64,000 nucleotides of DNA from Pseudobdellovibrionaceae bacterium (lineage in GTDB: Bacteria > Bdellovibrionota > Bdellovibrionia > Bdellovibrionales > Bdellovibrionaceae): positions 1,210,565 to 1,274,564 of the forward strand of contig JAHBUV010000001.1 in assembly GCA_019637915.1 (NCBI GenBank), written 5' to 3'. Made by a program: the position numbers and the translations under genes. This document shows positions 40,367 to 50,440 of this stretch, piece by piece (position 1 is the stretch's first letter; every line of letters starts with the position of its first letter). Below the pieces are notes generated by a model. It did not search any database. It was not told the DNA's origin and saw nothing but the letters and a program-made list of their open reading frames with translations.

Positions 40367-41488
40367 CTAGCGGCGCTGCTTGAGTTTGCGGCGACGCCCT
40401 TCCTTGTCGGAGAAATTGAAATCCGCGTCGATGGAAAACGCGCAGGACAGCTCGAGCTTGTAACGCGTCGCCGGGGTTTGCCCCGGGTACACGCCGGTTT
40501 CCTCGGTGTAACGGGCCAGGTCGAATTTCAGGAAGAACAAATCCATGCTGGCGCCCAAGGTGGGATACCCCTGGTTCAGCCCGACACGCAGGTCGACCAG
40601 AGGCAAACCGAGCTCCGCCCCGACGTGCAGTTTCTTGCCGATCGGTTCCCCTTGCAAAGTGATGTGGCGGTACTCGAGACCGCCGCGCACGTCGAGGCCG
40701 GGCAGATCCAGCTCGCTGCCCAAGCCGAAGCTCAGATTGTCTTTGATCCGCGGCGGGGCCGTCAGGCCGGATTCCGGCGCGAAAGCGGTCGATCCCACGT
40801 CCTGCCAATGCACGCCGAAAATCGTCGTGATGGGACCGGGAATCTTGAACTGGGCGCCGAGGTCGAGGCCGTAGGCGGTGCCGCGCTGGTTGAACTGATC
40901 CAGCACCGACTCGCCCCCGGACGTGATCGTCGACAAACTGATGTCCTGGGTCCCCCCCCAACGGGCGATGCGCTTGAAGGTCGTGCCGAAGGTCAATCCC
41001 GGCCCGAGGGGAAAACCGTAAGAGGCGGCGCTGATGGTGTCGCTGAGGTAAGTCAGGTTCAAGGAGGGGAACGCCGGGTTGTGCAGGATGCCCTGCAAAG
41101 TCGTCGAATTGAAAAAGGTCACGCCGAAACGGGGCATGGCGAACTTGCTCGCCGTGCCCAGTCCCGCCCACAGGGGCTTTCCATAAAATCTGTTGTAGCA
41201 GGCCGAGCCGGAACAGTTCGAGTCCTGCATTTGACGGTACAGATCGACGACATCGTCGCCGTTGCCCCCCAGACCGACGTTGAACACTTCCCAGGACAAG
41301 GCGGAGTTGTCGCCCAGCACGGCCGGGTTCCAGATGACGGCATCGGTGTCTTCGACGAAGGGCAGGTAGACGCCGCCCATGCCGAGGGCGCGCACCGGGC
41401 GCTGGAACTCGAAAAGCTCCGCGGCCCGGGCCGCCGCCCCCGCGAGAACCAGACACACAATGAGGAGAAGTCCCATCCGCCGCAACAT
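40367..41488 (-). CDS. OM beta-barrel protein, third member of a repeated barrel/lipoprotein cassette
   Basis: A 373-residue protein with a signal peptide (MLRRMGLLLIVCLVLAGAAARA). The mature N-terminus PVRALGMGGVYLPFVEDTDAVIWNPAVLG is the LGMGG-A-x-x-D...NPA-x-L pattern of FadL/PorV-like OM proteins. The rest is barrel-like, with FGTTFKRIARWGG, LELSCAFSIDADFNF and QGYPTLGASMDLFFLKFDLARYTEETGVYPGQTPATRYKLEL. It shares the start motif and the late '(Y)xEExG...PA..RY' motif with the barrels at 42341 and 44256. ATG 41488 with GAGGTG immediately upstream; a GTG one codon earlier is also possible. Function unknown; hydrophobic-compound uptake or secretion accessory are family possibilities. Confidence 0.8.
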   Translation of the reverse strand: MLRRMGLLLIVCLVLAGAAARAAELFEFQRPVRALGMGGVYLPFVEDTDAVIWNPAVLGDNSALSWEVFNVGLGGNGDDVVDLYRQMQDSNCSGSACYNRFYGKPLWAGLGTASKFAMPRFGVTFFNSTTLQGILHNPAFPSLNLTYLSDTISAASYGFPLGPGLTFGTTFKRIARWGGTQDISLSTITSGGESVLDQFNQRGTAYGLDLGAQFKIPGPITTIFGVHWQDVGSTAFAPESGLTAPPRIKDNLSFGLGSELDLPGLDVRGGLEYRHITLQGEPIGKKLHVGAELGLPLVDLRVGLNQGYPTLGASMDLFFLKFDLARYTEETGVYPGQTPATRYKLELSCAFSIDADFNFSDKEGRRRKLKQRR

Positions 41489-41495
41489 CACCTCG

Positions 41496-42332
41496 TCAGG
41501 GGCAGCAGTCGAAAGGGTGGAAGGGATGCATCGGGTCCGCCGAGCAGTTCTGCACGCCGACCGTGTCGGAACGCACCAGGGCTTTGATGGCCAGCTGGAC
41601 CATGGGATCCGTCCAGGCCGTGTCCGCCGGGCTGGTGATGGAGCAGGGGTTCGGCGTCATCAGCTGGCAGGAATCGTTGAGATCGTCCAAAAGCGTCGAG
41701 GTCGAACCGGAAAGATTCGCCGAGATCGCCGCGAAATTATCGAGGAGGAGCGCGAACCCCGTGCCGATCTGCGCGACCTCGCTGTCGGTCCCCACCGTCA
41801 GGTCCGAGCAGGCGTTGTAGGCCGGATCGTCGTCCTCCTTGGCCTTCAGCTGCGCCCCGATCTTGCTCATGCCCAGCACCGCCATGAAGGTGTTGGCGTT
41901 GTTGCCGCGCAGGGATCCCAGGCGCGAGAGGCGCTGGATGCCCGTCGTCCCGAAAGTCTCGATCAGATCCTGGGCCGTCTGGCAGTGCGCCACGTCCACG
42001 CTCACGCCCGTGAAACCGGATTTGAACAGGTTGAAGGGCGTGCCGGAGCCGTCGATGTTGTCCACGAAGGTCAGGAAATTCAGCCCGCATTTGCCGGCGT
42101 AGATCCCGGCCTTGGTCAGCACGACGTCGTCGCCCCCCTGGGCCGCGGAACTCATCTCGGCGATCTTCGCCAGGGCCTCGTCGTAGCGTTGCCCGTCGAC
42201 CAGCTTCAAAGCGTCCTCGTACAGGGCCTCGTCCGAGTTCTTCGAGGCCATCGGCTCGAAGTAATTGCTGCCCCCGCAGGAGGACAAGGCGCCCGCCAGA
42301 AGCAGGATCGTGATTTTCCGACTCGTCTTCAT
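41496..42332 (-). CDS. Cys-rich lipoprotein, second of two paired with the barrels
   Basis: A 278-residue predicted lipoprotein with lipobox LSSC (MKTSRKITILLLAGALSSCGG). The start is ATG 42332, eight bases after the preceding stop and with GAGGGG upstream; the in-frame TTG at 42344 is less likely. The mature region begins with TPR-like helices (ALYEDALKLVDGQRYDEALAKIAEM), continues helical with spaced cysteines (CGLNFL, HCQTAQ, NACSDL, DSCQL, NPCSI), and ends CSADPMHPFHPFDCCP. Its Cys-Asp-Leu segment followed by a long helix and a further Cys pair resembles the lipoprotein at 43481. Likely partner of the adjacent barrels. Confidence 0.78.
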   Translation of the reverse strand: MKTSRKITILLLAGALSSCGGSNYFEPMASKNSDEALYEDALKLVDGQRYDEALAKIAEMSSAAQGGDDVVLTKAGIYAGKCGLNFLTFVDNIDGSGTPFNLFKSGFTGVSVDVAHCQTAQDLIETFGTTGIQRLSRLGSLRGNNANTFMAVLGMSKIGAQLKAKEDDDPAYNACSDLTVGTDSEVAQIGTGFALLLDNFAAISANLSGSTSTLLDDLNDSCQLMTPNPCSITSPADTAWTDPMVQLAIKALVRSDTVGVQNCSADPMHPFHPFDCCP

Positions 42333-42340
42333 CAATCCCC

Positions 42341-43420
42341 TCAAAACCGGAAAGAGAATTTACCCACGTAACGCCGGTCTTCCGCGGGCGCCGCTGGCGT
42401 GCCCACTTCCTCGCCGTAAGTCGCCAGCTGGAACTGGAACCTCTCACTGGCCAGCTCGAAACCGGCGGTCCAATACCTTTGATTGTAACCGGCGCGCAGG
42501 AAGAAAACGTCCCCGAAGTTGAACTCCGTCCCGAAGTGCACGAGCTTCGCCTTGTCCGTCTCATCCGCGGCCGTGAGCAGGCCGCTGTATTCCAAAGTCC
42601 ACACGGAGCGCAGGTTGTTGCTGTGGATCGGCGACACCGAGATTCCCACGTCGAGATCCTGCTTGACGGGATCCGGTCTTTGCGTGGCGTCCTTGTTGCG
42701 GATGCCGGAGGCCTTGTCGAAAGGCGTCCCGCCCACATCCCGCATCACCGCGCCCAGCGTGGGAAGCCAGACCCACGGCGCCGTCAGCAGGACGCCCACG
42801 TCCGCGCCCGCCCCCACGCCCTCTTTCACCAGGCCGGCGCGCGCCAGGGACGGCAGATCCAGGGCCTGGGTGGTGTCGAGGGCCGGTTCGTCCATCTCGA
42901 TGCGGGAAATGAGTTTGCCGGAAAAACCGATTTTGATCCGCCCGTCGAACAGGCGCAGGTTGTAGGCCAGGAAGAAAGCCAGGTCGTCGCGGTAGAAAAC
43001 ATCCGCCGTGCTGGCGCCGGTGCTGACCGCGTCCAGCGTGTATTTCCCCAGCAGGCCGATGCCGAAGTTGCGCGCCACGAAGGACGGCGAGATCTGCATG
43101 TTCGCGTGGTAGTAGGTGTTCGTGTTCGCCATCACCGAGGGCAGGACGCTGTCGATGGTGAAGGGCTGGGAAAAACCCTTCACCCGGCTCATATCCGGCA
43201 GGTTTTTGCTGATGTCCAGTTCCGGATCGAGAATCGTCCCGTAGATGTCGCGCAAGCGCCCGAGGGCGGCGGGGTTCAGGTACAAGGCGGTCTCGTCGTT
43301 GACGGCGGCCACGGAGGCGCCCCCCATGCCGAGGGCGCGGATGCCGTTGTAGAACTCGCGGCGTTCCCGGGCCTCCGTGAAGGCCGGGATGATCATCAGG
43401 AGAAGGAGAAAAACCCTCAT
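42341..43420 (-). CDS. OM beta-barrel protein, second member of the cassette
   Basis: A 359-residue protein with a short signal (MRVFLLLLMIIPAFTEA). Mature start GIRALGMGGASVAAVNDETALYLNPAALG is the clearest LGMGGA...D...NPA-x-L motif of the three related barrels. The C-terminus FQLATYGEEVGTPAAPAEDRRYVGKFSFRF matches the YGE(E/D)VGT...PAE-x-R-x-Y ending of the 44256 gene and closes with Phe, the OM insertion signal. Interior strands are Gly/aromatic-rich (WLPTLGAVMRDVGGTPF, VFFLRAGYNQRYWTAGFELA). Resembles UPF0164/PorV-type proteins in layout; no function assigned. GGAGGG sits almost against the ATG. Confidence 0.8.
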   Translation of the reverse strand: MRVFLLLLMIIPAFTEARERREFYNGIRALGMGGASVAAVNDETALYLNPAALGRLRDIYGTILDPELDISKNLPDMSRVKGFSQPFTIDSVLPSVMANTNTYYHANMQISPSFVARNFGIGLLGKYTLDAVSTGASTADVFYRDDLAFFLAYNLRLFDGRIKIGFSGKLISRIEMDEPALDTTQALDLPSLARAGLVKEGVGAGADVGVLLTAPWVWLPTLGAVMRDVGGTPFDKASGIRNKDATQRPDPVKQDLDVGISVSPIHSNNLRSVWTLEYSGLLTAADETDKAKLVHFGTEFNFGDVFFLRAGYNQRYWTAGFELASERFQFQLATYGEEVGTPAAPAEDRRYVGKFSFRF

Positions 43421-43480
43421 CCCTCCATTATGAAGCCCCGGGAGGGGGGAGCATGAGTCCAGAACGCCCGGAACCGGACT

Positions 43481-44248
43481 TTAGTAACCGAAGCTGGTCG
43501 TCAAAAAGCCCGTGGTCACGCGCCGCGGATTGCCGGTGCCGCCGGCGTCATCGATGGCCTTTTGGAAAACGTCGCACAGGTCCTTGTTGGCGCTCGAGCC
43601 GGTGCAGCTCAGGTTGTAGCTGGCGATGATGATGGCGCCGATGCTGGTCTGCGCGGCGATGGCGTCGGCGTTCCCCGTCGAGGGATCAACCAGTTCGAGC
43701 AGTTTCGCGGCGTTCGCCACGTCCGTGGTCTGGGTCTCGAGATCATAGCAGGGATTGCCCGTGCAGGTCGTGATCGGCGCGTTGTTGTCGAAGTAGCTGA
43801 TCATCGCCATGGTCAGGTAGCTGAAGCTCACGATCATGGTGGCGCCCTTCGAGCCGCTCTTCATGCAGGAATCGAACGCCGAGCCGACGTTGCTGAAATC
43901 CGCCGGCAGATTGCCCATGGACGAGAATGTCACGATCCCCATCAGGGTCGCGAGGGACGAGCCGCTGGCGCCGTTGTCGATGGCCTTGAACGCGTCGTTG
44001 AAACGCTTGCCGCTGCTGAATCCCTCGCGGATGAAAGCCCCCGAGCAGCGCAGGCCCTCGGCGCCCGGCGAGGTCATGCCCTCGATCTTCTCGAGGCAGG
44101 CGTTGACGTCGGCCGCGGTGGCGCCGGCGTCCAGTTTGTCCAGGCAGAATTGCGCGTCGCCGATCTGATCGGCGTCCTTGGTGCCGCCGCAGGAAAGCAG
44201 GACGACGGCGGCCAGCAGCGAAAGGATCGAAAGCGTGATCTTGTTCAC
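43481..44248 (-). CDS. Cys-rich lipoprotein, first of two paired with the barrels
   Basis: A 255-residue predicted lipoprotein (MNKITLSILSLLAAVVLLSCGG, lipobox LLSC). The start is GTG 44248 with GAGGT five bases upstream; a GTG two codons earlier overlaps that site and is less likely. The mature protein is mainly helical with cysteines in FCLDKL, NACLEKI, LRCSGA, DSCMKS, TTCTGNPCYDL, LSCTG and LCDVF, many probably disulfide-bonded in the periplasm. The C-Y-D-L helix and downstream Cys pair parallel the 41496 lipoprotein. Lies seven bases after the 44256 barrel's stop. Confidence 0.78.
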   Translation of the reverse strand: MNKITLSILSLLAAVVLLSCGGTKDADQIGDAQFCLDKLDAGATAADVNACLEKIEGMTSPGAEGLRCSGAFIREGFSSGKRFNDAFKAIDNGASGSSLATLMGIVTFSSMGNLPADFSNVGSAFDSCMKSGSKGATMIVSFSYLTMAMISYFDNNAPITTCTGNPCYDLETQTTDVANAAKLLELVDPSTGNADAIAAQTSIGAIIIASYNLSCTGSSANKDLCDVFQKAIDDAGGTGNPRRVTTGFLTTSFGY

Positions 44249-44255
44249 GGTCACC

Positions 44256-45449
44256 TCACCAATTGATGTTCATGCGGATCGCGTACATGCGGTTTTCCGC
44301 CGGCGTGGAATAGGTGCCGACGTCCTCCCCGTAGGTCACGGCGTCCAGGTTGAAAACGCCCAGGAGGGCGCTGATCCCGGCGGTCAGGTAACCCTGGTTC
44401 AGGCCGACCCGGTAAGAGCCCTTCCACCAGCTGGCCACGGTCCAGTCGAACTCGAGCCCCAGGTGCAGGCTTTTGCGCAGGCTGATCGACGGATGCATGA
44501 GATCACGGAAGTCCATGACGCCGCGGCCGCCGAACAGCCACATCGAAGGGTATTCCCAGCGCGTGCCGACGTCGACGACCCGGTGGAGTTTCTCCGGCGG
44601 CTCGGTTTTCTCTTTGTTGAGCAGCTTCGAGGAGGTGGTGAATTTGGTCTCGGCCACGTTGCGCACCACCAGGCCGAAGCTCGGCCGGGTCAGTCGCAGC
44701 AGCGACAGGAAGCCCGCGTCCGGCAGGTTCGGCGTGTACAAAAGGCCCAGGTCGGCGTCGACGCCGAAACCTTCGCGCATGTCGCTTTCCTGGATCAGCT
44801 TCGAATCGCTGGCGAGTTCAATGAAATTGATTGATTTTGAAAAATAACCGCGGTTGATGAATTTCCCGGTCACGCCCCACGACAGCCGGCCGTTGGAGAA
44901 CCCCTTGTAGTCGTCGCCGTAACCCAGGGCCACGGTCGTGTCGGCGTAAACCGTCGTGTTGAGCGACGGGCCGACGCCCTGGTGGATGCTGCCCTCCAGG
45001 GTGACGTCCGCCGGGATGACGGCGATCCCCCAATTGGGGCGCACCAAGAAACCCGAAAAGGGCGTCAGCCGCAGACCGATGGTTTTCCCGTATTGCTTCT
45101 GCAGCAGATCGAACATGGCCTGCTGCTTGTCGGACTCGCTGCCCTGGGTGTCCTGGGCTTCACTGATCTCCTTGGTCAGGTCCGGCAGGCTCTTCGAAAT
45201 GCCGACGTCGATGAGCAGGTTCATCTCGCCGTCCTCCCGGCGGGCCAGGCCGGCGGGATTGTACAAGAGGGCGTTGTAATCGTTGGCCACGGCGACGAAA
45301 GCGTCCCCCATGCCCAAAGGACGTGTCCCGACATATTGATGGTGAATCCTGTAGCTGACCCCGGCGTCCTGCGCCTTCACCCAGGGTGAAAGCGAAATGG
45401 TCAGAAAGAACACCAAGCCCGCTTGGCGTGAAATCGTTCGTTGCGACAT
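44256..45449 (-). CDS. OM beta-barrel protein, first member of the cassette
   Basis: A 397-residue protein with a signal peptide (MSQRTISRQAGLVFFLTISLSPWVKA). Mature start GTRPLGMGDAFVAVANDYNALLYNPAGLA is the LGMG-x-A...D...NPA-x-L barrel motif. The C-terminus VTYGEDVGTYSTPAENRMYAIRMNINW matches the end of the 42341 protein and finishes with Trp. Inner strands include LRLTRPSFGLVVRNVAE and YRVGLNQGYLTAGISALLGVFNLDAVTYGEDVG. ATG 45449 has GGAGGG ten bases upstream; the open frame extends to 45467. First gene of a five-gene barrel-lipoprotein-barrel-lipoprotein-barrel run continuing into addB-addA. Confidence 0.82.
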   Translation of the reverse strand: MSQRTISRQAGLVFFLTISLSPWVKAQDAGVSYRIHHQYVGTRPLGMGDAFVAVANDYNALLYNPAGLARREDGEMNLLIDVGISKSLPDLTKEISEAQDTQGSESDKQQAMFDLLQKQYGKTIGLRLTPFSGFLVRPNWGIAVIPADVTLEGSIHQGVGPSLNTTVYADTTVALGYGDDYKGFSNGRLSWGVTGKFINRGYFSKSINFIELASDSKLIQESDMREGFGVDADLGLLYTPNLPDAGFLSLLRLTRPSFGLVVRNVAETKFTTSSKLLNKEKTEPPEKLHRVVDVGTRWEYPSMWLFGGRGVMDFRDLMHPSISLRKSLHLGLEFDWTVASWWKGSYRVGLNQGYLTAGISALLGVFNLDAVTYGEDVGTYSTPAENRMYAIRMNINW

Positions 45450-45505
45450 GAAGAAAGAGCCCTCCACCCTTCCAAAAATTTTATGCTTTGACTAGAATCC
45501 TGGGT

Positions 45506-46150
45506 ATGCGTCTTTTCTTCTTATTCTCTTTTTTGACCTTGGTCGGGATTTCCGCCCCCCATGCCGCGCCGAACCCCGGGATTCCGCGGCCCGCTCCGCC
45601 GGGAACGCGGGAGGAAGCCCCTCCCGCCGCGGCGGACGAAACGCGTTTGGAAGACCTGCGCTTGGCGGAGCCTCCCGGCGTGCCGCAAGCGCTGCCCGAT
45701 TCCGCGCGTCGGCGCCCACCCCTCGCGCCGCGCGCCGACCAGCATTGGCAGGTCAACACCGGCCTGCTGGGGGGTGCCTACCTGGACAAAAACAAAATCA
45801 CCAACTTCGGGTTCATCGGCGTCCAATGGCGGCGCGGGGCGGAGATCCAATCCACCTGGGATTTCGCGCTGGACCTGACCACCACGTCGGTGCTGCATTT
45901 TTCCTGCGGCCGCCGTTACCCTTGGGGCTATGACGGCCAATTCGCGCCTTACTGGAAGCTGGCTTTGAGCCAGACCGTGCCGTCCGACGAGTTTTTCGGC
46001 GGCCTCACCAACCTGGAGCGGGTGAAGGCCGTGGGCGCGCTGGGCCTGGGCGACCTGCGGGAAAGCTCGCCGCCGTGGAACGCCGAATTCGCCCTCGGCT
46101 GGGGCATGCGCGGACCGGGTTTCCAGCTCCGCGTCGGCCGCGGTTTCTAG
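45506..46150 (+). CDS. Secreted or OM protein of unknown function
   Basis: A 214-residue protein with a signal peptide (MRLFFLFSFLTLVGISAPHA). A Pro/Arg/Glu-rich linker (PNPGIPRPAPPGTREEAPPAA, about residues 20-80) precedes a compact beta-strand-rich domain (WQVNTGLLGGAYLDKNKITNFGFIGVQW ... FQLRVGRGF), ending in Phe like OM barrels. No recognised family. The start is ATG 45506; a possible -10 box TATGCT lies at 45482-45487. Divergent from the barrel/lipoprotein cassette and overlapping coaE tail-to-tail by four bases (CTAG). Confidence 0.7.
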   Translation: MRLFFLFSFLTLVGISAPHAAPNPGIPRPAPPGTREEAPPAAADETRLEDLRLAEPPGVPQALPDSARRRPPLAPRADQHWQVNTGLLGGAYLDKNKITNFGFIGVQWRRGAEIQSTWDFALDLTTTSVLHFSCGRRYPWGYDGQFAPYWKLALSQTVPSDEFFGGLTNLERVKAVGALGLGDLRESSPPWNAEFALGWGMRGPGFQLRVGRGF

Positions 46151-46731
46151 AGTTTCAGGATGAGTTCGTCGACCTGCCGCTCAAGGTGGGCCAGGTCGCC
46201 GTCGTTGCGCAGGACGAAATGCGCCAGGGATTCCTTCTCCAACAAAGGAAGTTGAGAGGCCAGGCGGCGGTCGATTTCGGCGTCATCCCAGGCGTTGCGC
46301 GATTTCATGCGCGAGCGCTGCAGGTCCGGCGTGGCGCTGACGACGACGACGGCGTCGAAACCCTCGAGCTTTTTCTCGAACAGCAGAGGCACGTCGTAAA
46401 AGGCCATGCGGAAACCCTGGGTCGACAGCAGGCGCCGCCGCGAGGCCACTTCGGCCTGGACCAAAGGATGGATCAGGCTCTCGAGACGGGAAAGTTTCAG
46501 GCCGTCGCCGAACACCCGCCGTCCCAATTCGCGACGGTCGAGCTCCCCGTCCGGTCCGCGCAGATCGGCCCCGAACTCGCGCAGCACCGCCGTTTGTCCG
46601 GGCGTTCCGGGCGCCACCACCCGGCGGGCGATGTCATCGGCGTCGATCACCGGCCAACCTTTGGTCCGGAGCATCCCCGCCACCGTGCTTTTGCCGGAAG
46701 CCAGACCTCCGGTCAGTCCGATCCATTTCAT
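46147..46731 (-). CDS. coaE: Dephospho-CoA kinase
   Basis: A 194-residue P-loop kinase for the last step of coenzyme A synthesis. It begins WIGLTGGLASGKSTVAGML (Walker A) and continues with WPVIDADDIARRVV, LSRLESLIHPLVQ (the conserved HP after the CoA domain), YDVPLLFEKKLEGFDAVVVVSA and a C-terminal R-x-x-Q-like segment. Length is normal. It is a single minus-strand gene, divergent from the Ser/Thr kinase (41-base gap) and overlapping the upstream plus-strand gene at the stop codons. Confidence 0.95.
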   Translation of the reverse strand: MKWIGLTGGLASGKSTVAGMLRTKGWPVIDADDIARRVVAPGTPGQTAVLREFGADLRGPDGELDRRELGRRVFGDGLKLSRLESLIHPLVQAEVASRRRLLSTQGFRMAFYDVPLLFEKKLEGFDAVVVVSATPDLQRSRMKSRNAWDDAEIDRRLASQLPLLEKESLAHFVLRNDGDLAHLERQVDELILKL

Positions 46732-46772
46732 ATTCTCTCTTCAGAACACCAGGGAAAACGCCGACATGGTTC

Positions 46773-48662
46773 ATGATGTCCCAGTTCGAACGCTTCGGCA
46801 AATATATCCTGCTCGAGAAGCTCGCCGCCGGCGGGATGGCCGAGATTTACCTGGCGAAATCGCTGGGCGCCCAAGGCGTGAACAAGTTCCTCGCCGTCAA
46901 GCGCGTGCTCCCGCAATTCAGCGAAAATCCCGAATTCAAGGAGATGTTCCGCGAGGAGGCCCGGGTCTCGGTGAACCTGCGCCACTCGAACGTCGTGCCG
47001 ATCTTCGATTTCGGCGAGGAGAAAAACCAGTTCTACCTGGTCATGGAGTACGTCGAGGGTCGCAACCTGCGCCAGATCCTCAATGAACTCAAGAAACACC
47101 AGGTGCAGTTCTCCATCGAGCAGATCTGCTACGTCATCCGCGAAGCCGCCGGCGGCCTCGATCACGCCCACCGCTGCATCGACGGCTCCACCGGCCGGCC
47201 GCTCAACATCATCCATCGCGACATCAGCCCCCAGAACATCATGGTGAGCTTCGAAGGCGAAGTGAAGATCATCGACTTCGGGATCGCCAAGGCTGAAAGC
47301 CAGGTCGAAGCGACGAAGGCCGGCACCCTCAAGGGCAAATTCGGTTACATGAGCCCCGAGCAGGCCGACGGCCACCAGATCGACGTGCGCACGGACATTT
47401 TCTCCCTGGGCATCGTCTTCTGGGAGTTGCTGGCCAACGACCGCCTGTTCACGGCGAGCTCCGAGGCGGCGATCCTGCGCAAGATCCGCGAGTGCCAGAT
47501 CCCCTCGATCCGGAAAATCAACCCCAACGTCCCGCCGGAACTCGAGAAGATCGTCAACAAGGTCCTCGCCAAAGACCCGAACCTGCGCTACCAGACGGCG
47601 GCGGCCCTGCACAAGGACCTCAACCGCTTTCTGAACACGCAATACCCGGATTTCAACGCCCAGGATTTCGCCGTCTTCGTGAAGAACACCTTCGCCTCGA
47701 CCTACCAGGAGTCGCGCCGCAAGCTCGTCGATTACGCGAAAGCCCAGAACGGCGACCCCCGGGAAAGCACCGGCAGCGGCGTCCGCGCCGCCGCCCGCAA
47801 CGACGCCACCGTCATCGACCACAGTCTGCCGGCGGAAATCGAAAACCTGAATCTCGACACCTCGACCGCCATCAAGGTGGAGCTGCAGCAAAAAGGCCGT
47901 CACACGCGCGCCGCCGCGGCCAAGTGGAACAATGGCGGCATCGGCCCGGCGCAGCCCTGGCCCATGAACCCCAACCACACGGGAACGCGCGCCCCGATCC
48001 CCGATTTTTCCCGTCCCAGCGGTTTGTTCGACAAGATCCTCGGGCTGACCATGCCGGCCGCGATCATCGCCATCTTCGCGATCGGCGGCTGGTGGGCCTG
48101 GAGCAACGGCCTGGTGGCCGAACTCTTCGCGTCGAACCCGGTGAACGCCGTCACGGAACAGAAAAAAGACAGCGGCACCGTGGAGCCCGCCTCCAGCGCC
48201 ATGTACCGCGTGACCATCACCTCCGAACCCATGGGCGCGCGCATTTTCTTCGACGGCGAGGACCAGAAGAAGTTCACGCCCTACATGCTGGACATGCCGA
48301 GCGGCCGCGTCCACCACATCACGCTGAAGCGCGAGGGTTATTACCCCCATGAAAGCGATTTCACCCCGGTGAAGGACGCGCAGACCCTGAAGGCCACGCT
48401 GCAGCCCCTGGGCCGCGCCGCCTACGTGACGATCTCGCTGGTGAACGGCGGCAACAACCCGGTCCTGGAAGTGAACGGCCGGCGCCTCGGCGAAAAAATC
48501 ACCGATCGTTTGGTCCAGCCCTACCCGATCCCCGCCGGAGTCCCGGTGCAGATCCGCGCCCGCAATTCGTTCACGGGCGCCATGGCCGAACAAACCGTCA
48601 CTTTGCAGCCGGAACAGCGCAAGAACGTCGAGCTGATTCTCGGCACCACCCCGGCGCGATGA
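46773..48662 (+). CDS. Ser/Thr protein kinase with a transmembrane segment and PEGA-like domain
   Basis: A 629-residue PknB-type kinase. Gly-loop AAGGMAEIYLAK, Lys43 in LAVKRV, catalytic loop HRDISPQN (Asp150), DFGIAKAE (Asp168), and SPEQADG as activation-loop end. A linker with basic and Pro-rich stretches precedes one membrane helix (about residues 428-447, IAIFAIGGWWAW). The periplasmic part has one or two PEGA-like units (VTITSEPMGARIFFDGEDQ ... YVTISLVNGGNNPVLEVNGRRLGE). The stop overlaps the next ATG (ATGA), coupling it to an acyl-CoA ligase. Starts with ATG-ATG after CATGGTTC; no strong ribosome-binding site seen. Confidence 0.93.
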   Translation: MMSQFERFGKYILLEKLAAGGMAEIYLAKSLGAQGVNKFLAVKRVLPQFSENPEFKEMFREEARVSVNLRHSNVVPIFDFGEEKNQFYLVMEYVEGRNLRQILNELKKHQVQFSIEQICYVIREAAGGLDHAHRCIDGSTGRPLNIIHRDISPQNIMVSFEGEVKIIDFGIAKAESQVEATKAGTLKGKFGYMSPEQADGHQIDVRTDIFSLGIVFWELLANDRLFTASSEAAILRKIRECQIPSIRKINPNVPPELEKIVNKVLAKDPNLRYQTAAALHKDLNRFLNTQYPDFNAQDFAVFVKNTFASTYQESRRKLVDYAKAQNGDPRESTGSGVRAAARNDATVIDHSLPAEIENLNLDTSTAIKVELQQKGRHTRAAAAKWNNGGIGPAQPWPMNPNHTGTRAPIPDFSRPSGLFDKILGLTMPAAIIAIFAIGGWWAWSNGLVAELFASNPVNAVTEQKKDSGTVEPASSAMYRVTITSEPMGARIFFDGEDQKKFTPYMLDMPSGRVHHITLKREGYYPHESDFTPVKDAQTLKATLQPLGRAAYVTISLVNGGNNPVLEVNGRRLGEKITDRLVQPYPIPAGVPVQIRARNSFTGAMAEQTVTLQPEQRKNVELILGTTPAR

Positions 48663-50440
48663 AAACCCCTGAAACGCTCGCCCACTGCTGGCTCGCCATG
48701 CGCGAAAGGCCCGCTTCCGCCACCGCCGTGCGCGTGAAACGCGGCGATTCCTGGAAAGACATCTCCTGGGACGAATACGCCCGCGATATCGAGCTCGCCG
48801 CCGCCGGGCTGCTGTCCCTGGGCGTGCGCCCCGGCGATCGCGTCGCCATCATGTCGGAAACGCGCTACGAATGGGCCTGCGCGGATTTCGCCGTCATGTG
48901 CGTCGGCGCCGTCACCGTGCCGGTTTACGCGAACAACACGCCCGAAGACTGCGCCTACATCCTGAACGATTCCGGCGCGCGCGTCCTGTTCATCGAGAAC
49001 CGCGCCAGCGGCCGCGCCTGGAGGAAAATCAGCGGCGACTGCCCCTCCGTGGAAAAAACCGTCTGCTTCGAGAAGAACGCCGCCGGTGACGACGATCTCG
49101 CCTGGGAATCCCTGCTCGAGGAGGGCCGCTCCCGCCTGCGCGCCGACCCCGGGGCGGTGACCCGCCTCGCCGCCGCCCGGCGCGCCGACGACTTCGCGAC
49201 CTTGATTTACACCTCCGGGACCACCGGCCGCCCGAAAGGCGTGGTCCTGCGCCACGAGCAGGGCGTCTCCGAAGTGTCGGACGCCTTCACTTACGTGGGC
49301 GTCACCGCCCAGGACGTGAGCTTGAGCTTCCTCCCCTACGCCCACGTCCTCGGGCGCATTGAAATGTGGGGCCACGCCTGGATCGGCTTCACCATGGCCT
49401 TCGCCGAGAGCATCGAAAAAGTCCGCGCCAACCTGCAGGACATCCGCCCCACCATCCTGGTCGCCGTGCCCCGCATCTTCGAAAAAATCCACGCCGGCAT
49501 CCACACGCAAATGGAAAACCAGCTGGTGAAAAAAAAGCTTTTCGACTGGGCCATCGACGTCGGCCAGCAGGTCGGCGAGCTGCGTATGACCAGGCAGATC
49601 ATCCCGTTGAGCCTGCTGGCGCGCTACGAGGCCGCGCGCCGCCTGGTGCTTGACCGCATCAAGGACGCTTTCGGCGGACGCCTGCGTTTCGCGATCAGCG
49701 GCGGCGCCCCCCTGGCCGAGGAGATCTCGCGCTTTTTCCACGCCGCCGGCGTGCTCATCCTCGAAGGGTACGGCATGACCGAGACGACGGCCGCCATCAC
49801 CGTCAACGCGCCCTTCAACTATCGTTTCGGTTCCGTCGGCCGTCCCCTGCCGGAAGTGCGGCTGCGCATCGCCGCGGACGGCGAAGTGCTGGTGAAGAGC
49901 AAAAAAGTCACCCGCGAATACTACAAAAACCCCGAGGCGACGGCCGCCGTCCTGAAAGACGGCTGGTTCCACACCGGCGACATCGGCCATCTCCTGCCCG
50001 GCGGCGATCTGCGGATCACCGACCGCAAGAAAGACCTGATCAAAACCGCCGGCGGCAAGTACGTCGCCCCCCAGCGCATCGAAGGTCTTTTGAAGATGAA
50101 CCCCCTGGTCAGTCACGTCCTCGTGCACGGCGATCAACGCAAATACGTCGTGGCTTTGCTGTCGCCGGACCGCGCCGCTTTGGAAAAATTCGCCCGCGAT
50201 CAGGGCATCGCTTTCCGGGAGTGGACGGAGCTGCTGAAAAACCCGAAGGTGCTGGACCAGTTCCGCCAGGGCGTGGCCCAGGCCAACGAGCGGCTGGCGA
50301 GCTTCGAGTCCGTGAAGCGCTTCGCGGTCCTGCCGGTGGAATTCAGCGTCGAGGGCGGGGAACTGACGCCCTCGCTGAAAGTGAAACGCAAAGTCCTGGA
50401 TGAGAGGTTCCGCGACCGCATCGAGGCGCTGTATTCTTAG
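48659..50440 (+). CDS. Long-chain-type AMP-forming acyl-CoA synthetase
   Basis: A 593-residue adenylate-forming enzyme. It has the P-loop LIYTSGTTGRPKGVVLRH, YGMTETT, the ATP-binding GWFHTGDIG, and the hinge DRKKDLIKTAGGKYVAPQRIE. Length and order fit long-chain acyl-CoA ligases (FadD15/ACSL-like). It activates fatty acids to acyl-CoA for lipid metabolism. No signal peptide. The ATG overlaps the kinase stop (ATGA), so the two are co-translated, which hints at regulation of fatty-acid activation by phosphorylation or at a shared stimulus; this is inference. Confidence 0.93.
   Translation: MKTPETLAHCWLAMRERPASATAVRVKRGDSWKDISWDEYARDIELAAAGLLSLGVRPGDRVAIMSETRYEWACADFAVMCVGAVTVPVYANNTPEDCAYILNDSGARVLFIENRASGRAWRKISGDCPSVEKTVCFEKNAAGDDDLAWESLLEEGRSRLRADPGAVTRLAAARRADDFATLIYTSGTTGRPKGVVLRHEQGVSEVSDAFTYVGVTAQDVSLSFLPYAHVLGRIEMWGHAWIGFTMAFAESIEKVRANLQDIRPTILVAVPRIFEKIHAGIHTQMENQLVKKKLFDWAIDVGQQVGELRMTRQIIPLSLLARYEAARRLVLDRIKDAFGGRLRFAISGGAPLAEEISRFFHAAGVLILEGYGMTETTAAITVNAPFNYRFGSVGRPLPEVRLRIAADGEVLVKSKKVTREYYKNPEATAAVLKDGWFHTGDIGHLLPGGDLRITDRKKDLIKTAGGKYVAPQRIEGLLKMNPLVSHVLVHGDQRKYVVALLSPDRAALEKFARDQGIAFREWTELLKNPKVLDQFRQGVAQANERLASFESVKRFAVLPVEFSVEGGELTPSLKVKRKVLDERFRDRIEALYS

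Follow-up and report, generated by a model that had tools for sequence, protein, structure and literature searches.

Outer-membrane (OM) channels of the FadL type let hydrophobic molecules pass via a lateral opening; FadL itself works without a lipoprotein, and barrels of this type have long been regarded as lone channels. The major OM protein of B. bacteriovorus, PopA (Bd0427), is a plugged and weakly FadL-like barrel of 16 strands that forms a pentamer (PMC12228718). In PorV, of type IX secretion, and BamG, of the Bacteroidota BAM machine, the FadL fold is reused for protein handling, in BamG with a lipoprotein (PMC12611786, PMC12578637), and these proteins place some FadL-type barrels within larger machines. 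Here, we analyzed a 64,000-nucleotide stretch of a Pseudobdellovibrionaceae genome (the window) that carries genes for three predicted FadL-type barrels (A, B, and C) and two lipoproteins (L1 and L2). The fold is already known and family membership stays under curated cut-offs; what appears new is the linkage to these lipoproteins and the C-terminal tail of barrel C. Our literature search found no treatment of these genes, of their lipoprotein linkage, or of the C tail, and no paper on Bdellovibrionota and FadL.

Like the FadL/TodX/CymD channels (PF03349), the model of B has 14 strands, an NPA hatch, and a full-length structural match (Z 23-25), but PF03349 misses A and B and is weak with some C orthologs, and the present set joins three paralogs with a pair of lipoproteins. 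PorV/PorQ (NF033709) is the closest curated family for all three barrels, with a common hatch motif and a Z of 23.4; however, the scores lie under the family cut-off and no type IX secretion gene is found in the locus (a SprA_N search of 30 genomes gave no match, nor did its positive control). BamG, too, belongs to the FadL family and depends on a lipoprotein partner (Z 21.5-21.7 to B), but it has an N-terminal extension threading the lateral opening, which B lacks; moreover, nothing ties the set to BamA, and L1 and L2 are not demonstrably related to BamH. BamD and other TPR lipoproteins resemble L2, which has a BamD-like N terminus (E = 2e-4 with the profile) and a TPR-like model (BamD, Z 8.1), but the sequence likeness is confined to ~60 residues that take in the signal peptide and lipobox, L2 is rich in conserved Cys, and a Z below 10 for helical repeats may reflect a common arrangement only. 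PopA and B are both plugged barrels, with 16 strands and a pentamer in the former and 14 predicted strands in the latter.

Layout and distribution of the gene set

On the minus strand of the window, the genes run 5' to 3' as A, L1, B, L2, C, addB, and addA (Table 1), separated from A to addB by 1, 60, -4 (+8 with the ATG start of L2), 4, and 42 bases. These open reading frames confirm what a sequence-only reading of the window had described, i.e., five consecutive co-directional genes in the order barrel-lipoprotein-barrel-lipoprotein-barrel, with gaps of 60 bases or less and addB following 42 bases on.

Table 1. Positions of the genes and features within the window
Feature	Position	Strand	Description
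Barrel A	44256..45449	-	Predicted FadL/PorV-superfamily OM protein, 397 aa
L1	43481..44254	-	Lipoprotein, 257 aa, lipobox LLSC
Acidic stretch of L1	44175-44191	-	Just after the lipid Cys
Barrel B	42341..43420	-	Predicted 14-strand plugged barrel, 359 aa
Hatch of B	43244..43366	-	N-terminal, residues 19-59, with LGMG...NPA
L2	41496..42344 (TTG start) or 42332 (ATG start)	-	Acidic lipoprotein, predicted helical and TPR-like, 282/278 aa
Barrel C	40367..41491	-	Predicted FadL/PorV-superfamily OM protein, 374 aa
Basic tail of C	40370..40396	-	C-terminal, RRRKLKQRR-COOH
addB	40324-37562	-	Next after C
Small OM-barrel-like protein	45488..46150	+	220 aa, divergent from A
Upstream block	46147-50440		coaE, Ser/Thr kinase with PEGA domain, long-chain acyl-CoA ligase

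A comparison of gene order across the window and 80 named loci qualified this picture, since the arrangement is real in the window but its all-co-directional form is a minority one, found in six complete loci including the window. The commonest order was A> L1< B> L2> C> (26 loci), and in most relatives L1 is opposite in direction to B. L2 and C adjoin and are co-directional in every locus that has both, even if inverted relative to B, and the pair stays joined also where it has moved out of the block. L1 usually adjoins A, and the two move as a pair when the block splits; in genus g2, for example, the A-L1 pair is located elsewhere and B-L2-C remain between coaE and addB. In one genome (G018), B, L2-C, and L1 are dispersed. 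Across the 80 further loci, then, the fixed parts of the set are L2-C and the A/L1 pair.

The wider neighborhood is conserved as well. The upstream genes of Table 1 form, with the set and addAB, an order-wide block that reads ligase-kinase-coaE-(set)-addB-addA, in which the kinase and ligase genes of the window overlap by 4 bases. Among the 81 loci, addB was a neighbor in 63, coaE in 57, the kinase in 54, and the ligase in 50. Because the whole block is conserved, neighbors other than the five genes may be passengers. The small barrel-like protein has homologs in 48 loci, window included, and no Pfam match; its gene is divergent from A in all 45 of these loci that also hold A and adjoins A in 37 of them, which makes it a possible sixth member of the set.

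When single-sequence queries were run against 60 relatives, B was detected in 59, L2 in 56, and L1 in 50. A profile search of the phylum recovered a B-type barrel in 225 of 242 genomes and an L2-type match in 160; beyond the class, most of the L2-type matches were weak and limited to the N terminus. Counting by hand over 107 class genomes (thresholds of E < 1e-60 for B and E < 1e-30 for L2), we found both genes in 93, B without L2 in one, L2 without B in two (with the genes at contig ends), and neither in 11; L1 is present in 90 of the 107. All five genes are missing in nine of those 11 genomes (G039, G165, G166, and G179-G184), which belong to family f4 and are mostly reduced (1.2-2.4 Mb). 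Since these nine fall within one family, their absences may represent one or a few loss events. Beyond the class, B-L2-C occur in the same order in L201, L2-C in L205 and L214, and B-C without L2 in five f14 loci. B is the most conserved member of the five. Judged by these searches, Bdellovibrio-group predators and their kin keep a linked set made up of three anciently related FadL-type barrels and two lipoproteins that are not demonstrably related to each other.

Relationships and predicted fold of the barrels

Just as had been read from the window, all three barrels share an LGMG...D...NPA-x-L start and two of them, A and B, a YGE(E/D)VGT...PAExRxY ending; C has a degenerate version of this ending (YTEETGVYPGQTPATRY). 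The proposed relatedness of the three was upheld far beyond chance, with full-length hhalign matches at a probability of 100 (E = 2e-46, 1e-52, and 8e-48). In a tree of 63 rows, A, B, and C each formed one clade (support 100/100, 100/99, and 100/99), so that they are true paralogs. B and C have relatives elsewhere in the phylum, in further families and classes. Homologs from other families cluster with B (99/98) or C (96/64), which indicates old duplications whose copies have escaped homogenization. The barrel duplications are older than the class, and that of B and C is probably older than the phylum.

None of the five window proteins matched a Pfam family. At the sequence level, the barrels are closer to the PorV family than to Toluene_X/FadL. 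The NCBIfam PorV/PorQ model (NF033709) gave 35.5 bits with A, 43.6 with B, and 17.5 with C, all under the curated cut-off of 90 bits. The corresponding PorV_fam match of B was 2.7e-11; all 27 of 27 A orthologs matched, the best at 5.8e-14 and the window's A at 8e-9, again under the curated cut-off. One A ortholog matches the NCBI BamG model (2e-4). The Toluene_X/FadL family (PF03349) had weak matches in 11 of 32 C orthologs (best 4e-4) and none in A or B. A sequence search of solved structures with the barrels returned nothing significant, PorV (6h3i_F) appearing at E = 0.4 through the hatch.

An AlphaFold2 model of B built from 69 sequences (pLDDT 94.7, pTM 0.89) had 14 strands by DSSP and an N-terminal hatch with the NPA motif. 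Structural comparison, for which Foldseek was also run, placed the model with FadL-type channels at Z 22.1-24.8 (CymD 24.8, TbuX 24.1, FadL 22.9-23.7), PorV at 23.1-23.4, and BamG at 21.5-21.7, with a gap below this group to unrelated barrels at 17-19. B is thus predicted to be a plugged barrel of the FadL/PorV/BamG superfamily, to which A and C may be assigned by profile homology to B; the Z values within the group lie too close together to tell one function from another. Residue 19 of the model aligns to residue 1 of FadL, among its first mature residues, and B therefore has no N-terminal extension, while A has a few extra residues at its N terminus. Conservation within B is 0.74 in the hatch, 0.65 in the strands, and 0.41 in the extracellular loops, and the loops, being the least conserved part, were ruled out as a marker of a surface partner.

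The sequence-only reading would have been refuted by barrels of unrelated folds or by genes that never occur together; the predicted fold of B with the profile homology of A and C to it, and the gene survey, refuted it on neither count. With paralogous barrels that share a fold, and genes found together over the order and class, the suggestion that they form an uncharacterized OM transport or assembly complex is reasonable.

The lipoproteins and the tail of barrel C

Each of the two lipoproteins, L1 and L2, carries a lipobox and ~9 Cys. The sequence-only reading took them as related; lipobox and cysteines are indeed common to both, but homology was rejected, as the hhalign probability of 33 obtained with the signal peptide fell to 6 with mature domains alone and was due to the signal peptide and lipobox. 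A C-x-D-L motif attributed to both was not conserved in the alignment of either ortholog family. The window's L1 has eight Cys besides that of the lipobox, and L1 orthologs have invariant Cys; a sequence search of solved structures with L1 gave no match. Directly behind the lipid Cys, 93% of L1 orthologs have at least two acidic residues, compared with 20% of L2 orthologs and 22-27% of a small background. This stretch recalls the Bacteroidota surface-export signal (PMC12578637) and, by analogy, might direct the sorting or surface export of lipoproteins in this phylum.

The model of L2 is all helical (pLDDT 85.6), and TPR proteins dominate its matches; the scores are weak (Z 7-10, Foldseek E > 0.3), so the TPR-like fold is a prediction at that level. 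Its BamD match (TIGR03302) reached 17.2 bits against a cut-off of 81.4 and covers residues 10-66 only. Many Cys are conserved in L2, and mature L2 orthologs have a median net charge of -17. A DxDxDG Ca-binding-like loop found in 46 of 71 orthologs is missing from the window's L2 (41496-42332, minus strand) and is not a defining feature of L2.

Whereas A and B terminate on the usual aromatic residue, the last strand of C is followed by a variable linker, a K/R-rich stretch, and then L-K-Q-R-R-COOH. The last two Arg are present in 66 of 66 full orthologs and K-Q-R-R in 55 of 66. All six Arg codons are used for the final pair, so that the tail is selected at the protein level and a DNA-level artefact near addB is ruled out. 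In a search for the tail pattern, the C gene was the only match in three genomes (G000, G036, and G051), and a fourth genome had three matches at other sites, within the level of the reversed-pattern control; being specific to C in three of the four genomes, the tail is not a general sorting signal. Those f14 homologs of C that have no adjoining L2 also have no tail, and outside the class basic C ends are found in L201, L202, and L214. The correlation of the tail with L2 is suggestive, not strict, given that in L205 L2 adjoins C yet there is no tail, and that in L113 and L162 the tail is present and no L2 was found. Because L2 is strongly acidic and TPR-like and the tail is basic, we propose that L2 may dock on the tail of C.

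Possible functions of the set

We consider it likely that the five genes encode a dedicated barrel-lipoprotein complex, leaving its cargo open. Our best reading of the whole is more tentative, namely a FadL-like complex for hydrophobic cargo with L2 bound to the C tail and L1 with A. Three FadL/PorV-superfamily barrels, their lumens closed by the NPA hatch, would act with two OM-anchored lipoproteins. L2 would be the periplasmic partner of C, gripping it via the basic KLKQRR tail, and L1 would pair with A. The barrels would pass hydrophobic molecules laterally through the OM in the manner of FadL, and at their periplasmic face the lipoproteins would receive this cargo or tie the barrels to one another. 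The cargo might be fatty acids or lipids, e.g., from prey or detritus. The physical complex, tail-L2 binding, the side faced by L1, and the cargo are the parts of this account that we infer.

Several observations bear on the FadL-like reading. In its favor, the modeled fold of B is nearest to FadL-family channels and has no N-terminal extension; the L2-C adjacency, the joint absence of the five genes in nine genomes, and the basic C tail next to an acidic L2 speak for the complex itself. Canonical FadL (PF03349) was found neither in the window's genome (G000, a 3.3 Mb assembly) nor in the three Bdellovibrio-like genus-g6 genomes tested; G000, G002-G004, G006, and G024 gave no match, and other relatives have one. 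That fatty acids of the prey are taken up directly is reported in PMC7529429, which cites Kuenen and Rittenberg 1975. The long-chain acyl-CoA ligase of the conserved neighborhood is a further point for fatty-acid cargo, but ligase and barrels share the block with coaE and addAB and A-L1 can exit the block while the ligase remains, so that this link may be passenger synteny. Against the FadL-like reading stand the closer sequence resemblance of the barrels to PorV and the fact that FadL needs no lipoprotein. A protein-handling role, in which the barrels hold lipoproteins and clients as a scaffold in the way of BamG or PorV, is nearly as likely as one with hydrophobic cargo. PorV/PorQ is the closest curated family, one A ortholog matches the BamG model, and the lipoprotein partners are genetically obligatory; PorV and BamG themselves belong to the FadL family and have proteins or lipoproteins as binding partners (PMC12611786, PMC12578637), and the acidic residues of L1 recall the surface-export signal noted above. 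However, all PorV_fam and BamG scores are under curated cut-offs, B is without a BamG-like extension, its extracellular loops are less conserved than would be expected with a fixed protein partner there, and no secretion- or BAM-machine gene lies within the block.

The conservation of the whole block, from the acyl-CoA ligase, kinase, and coaE to addAB, means that vicinity alone proves little, and the barrels could be separate housekeeping porin-like proteins in an old synteny block, with lipoproteins unconnected to their function. We regard this as improbable, because L2 and C are joined even when inverted or relocated, A and L1 relocate jointly, all five genes are jointly missing in nine genomes, and the C tail is under selection. 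The serial duplication of one barrel+lipoprotein unit, to which the sequence-only reading had attributed the locus, now seems very improbable: the alternating order in the window and the paralogy of the barrels would fit, but profile comparison of the mature domains detects no homology between L1 and L2, L1 is usually divergent, the tree has old and separate clades, the barrel duplications predate the class, and the couplings observed are L2-C and A-L1. A more specific idea, which we hold to be doubtful, is that a TPR-like lipoprotein facing the surface or the periplasm reads the RR-COOH of a FadL-type barrel, i.e., a C-terminal docking code of a phylum-specific OM machine that would serve as a hydrophobic-cargo or protein-handling complex in predators and their free-living kin.

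Kept almost everywhere in the phylum of Bdellovibrio apart from some reduced genomes, the set adds to PorV and BamG a third and independent example of barrels of the FadL type linked to lipoproteins. Its invariant tail offers a sharp and cheap handle on how a barrel meets a lipoprotein. If the cargo is fatty acids, the set may explain how these bacteria acquire lipids from their prey; canonical FadL was not detected in the window's genome or in the Bdellovibrio-like genomes tested.
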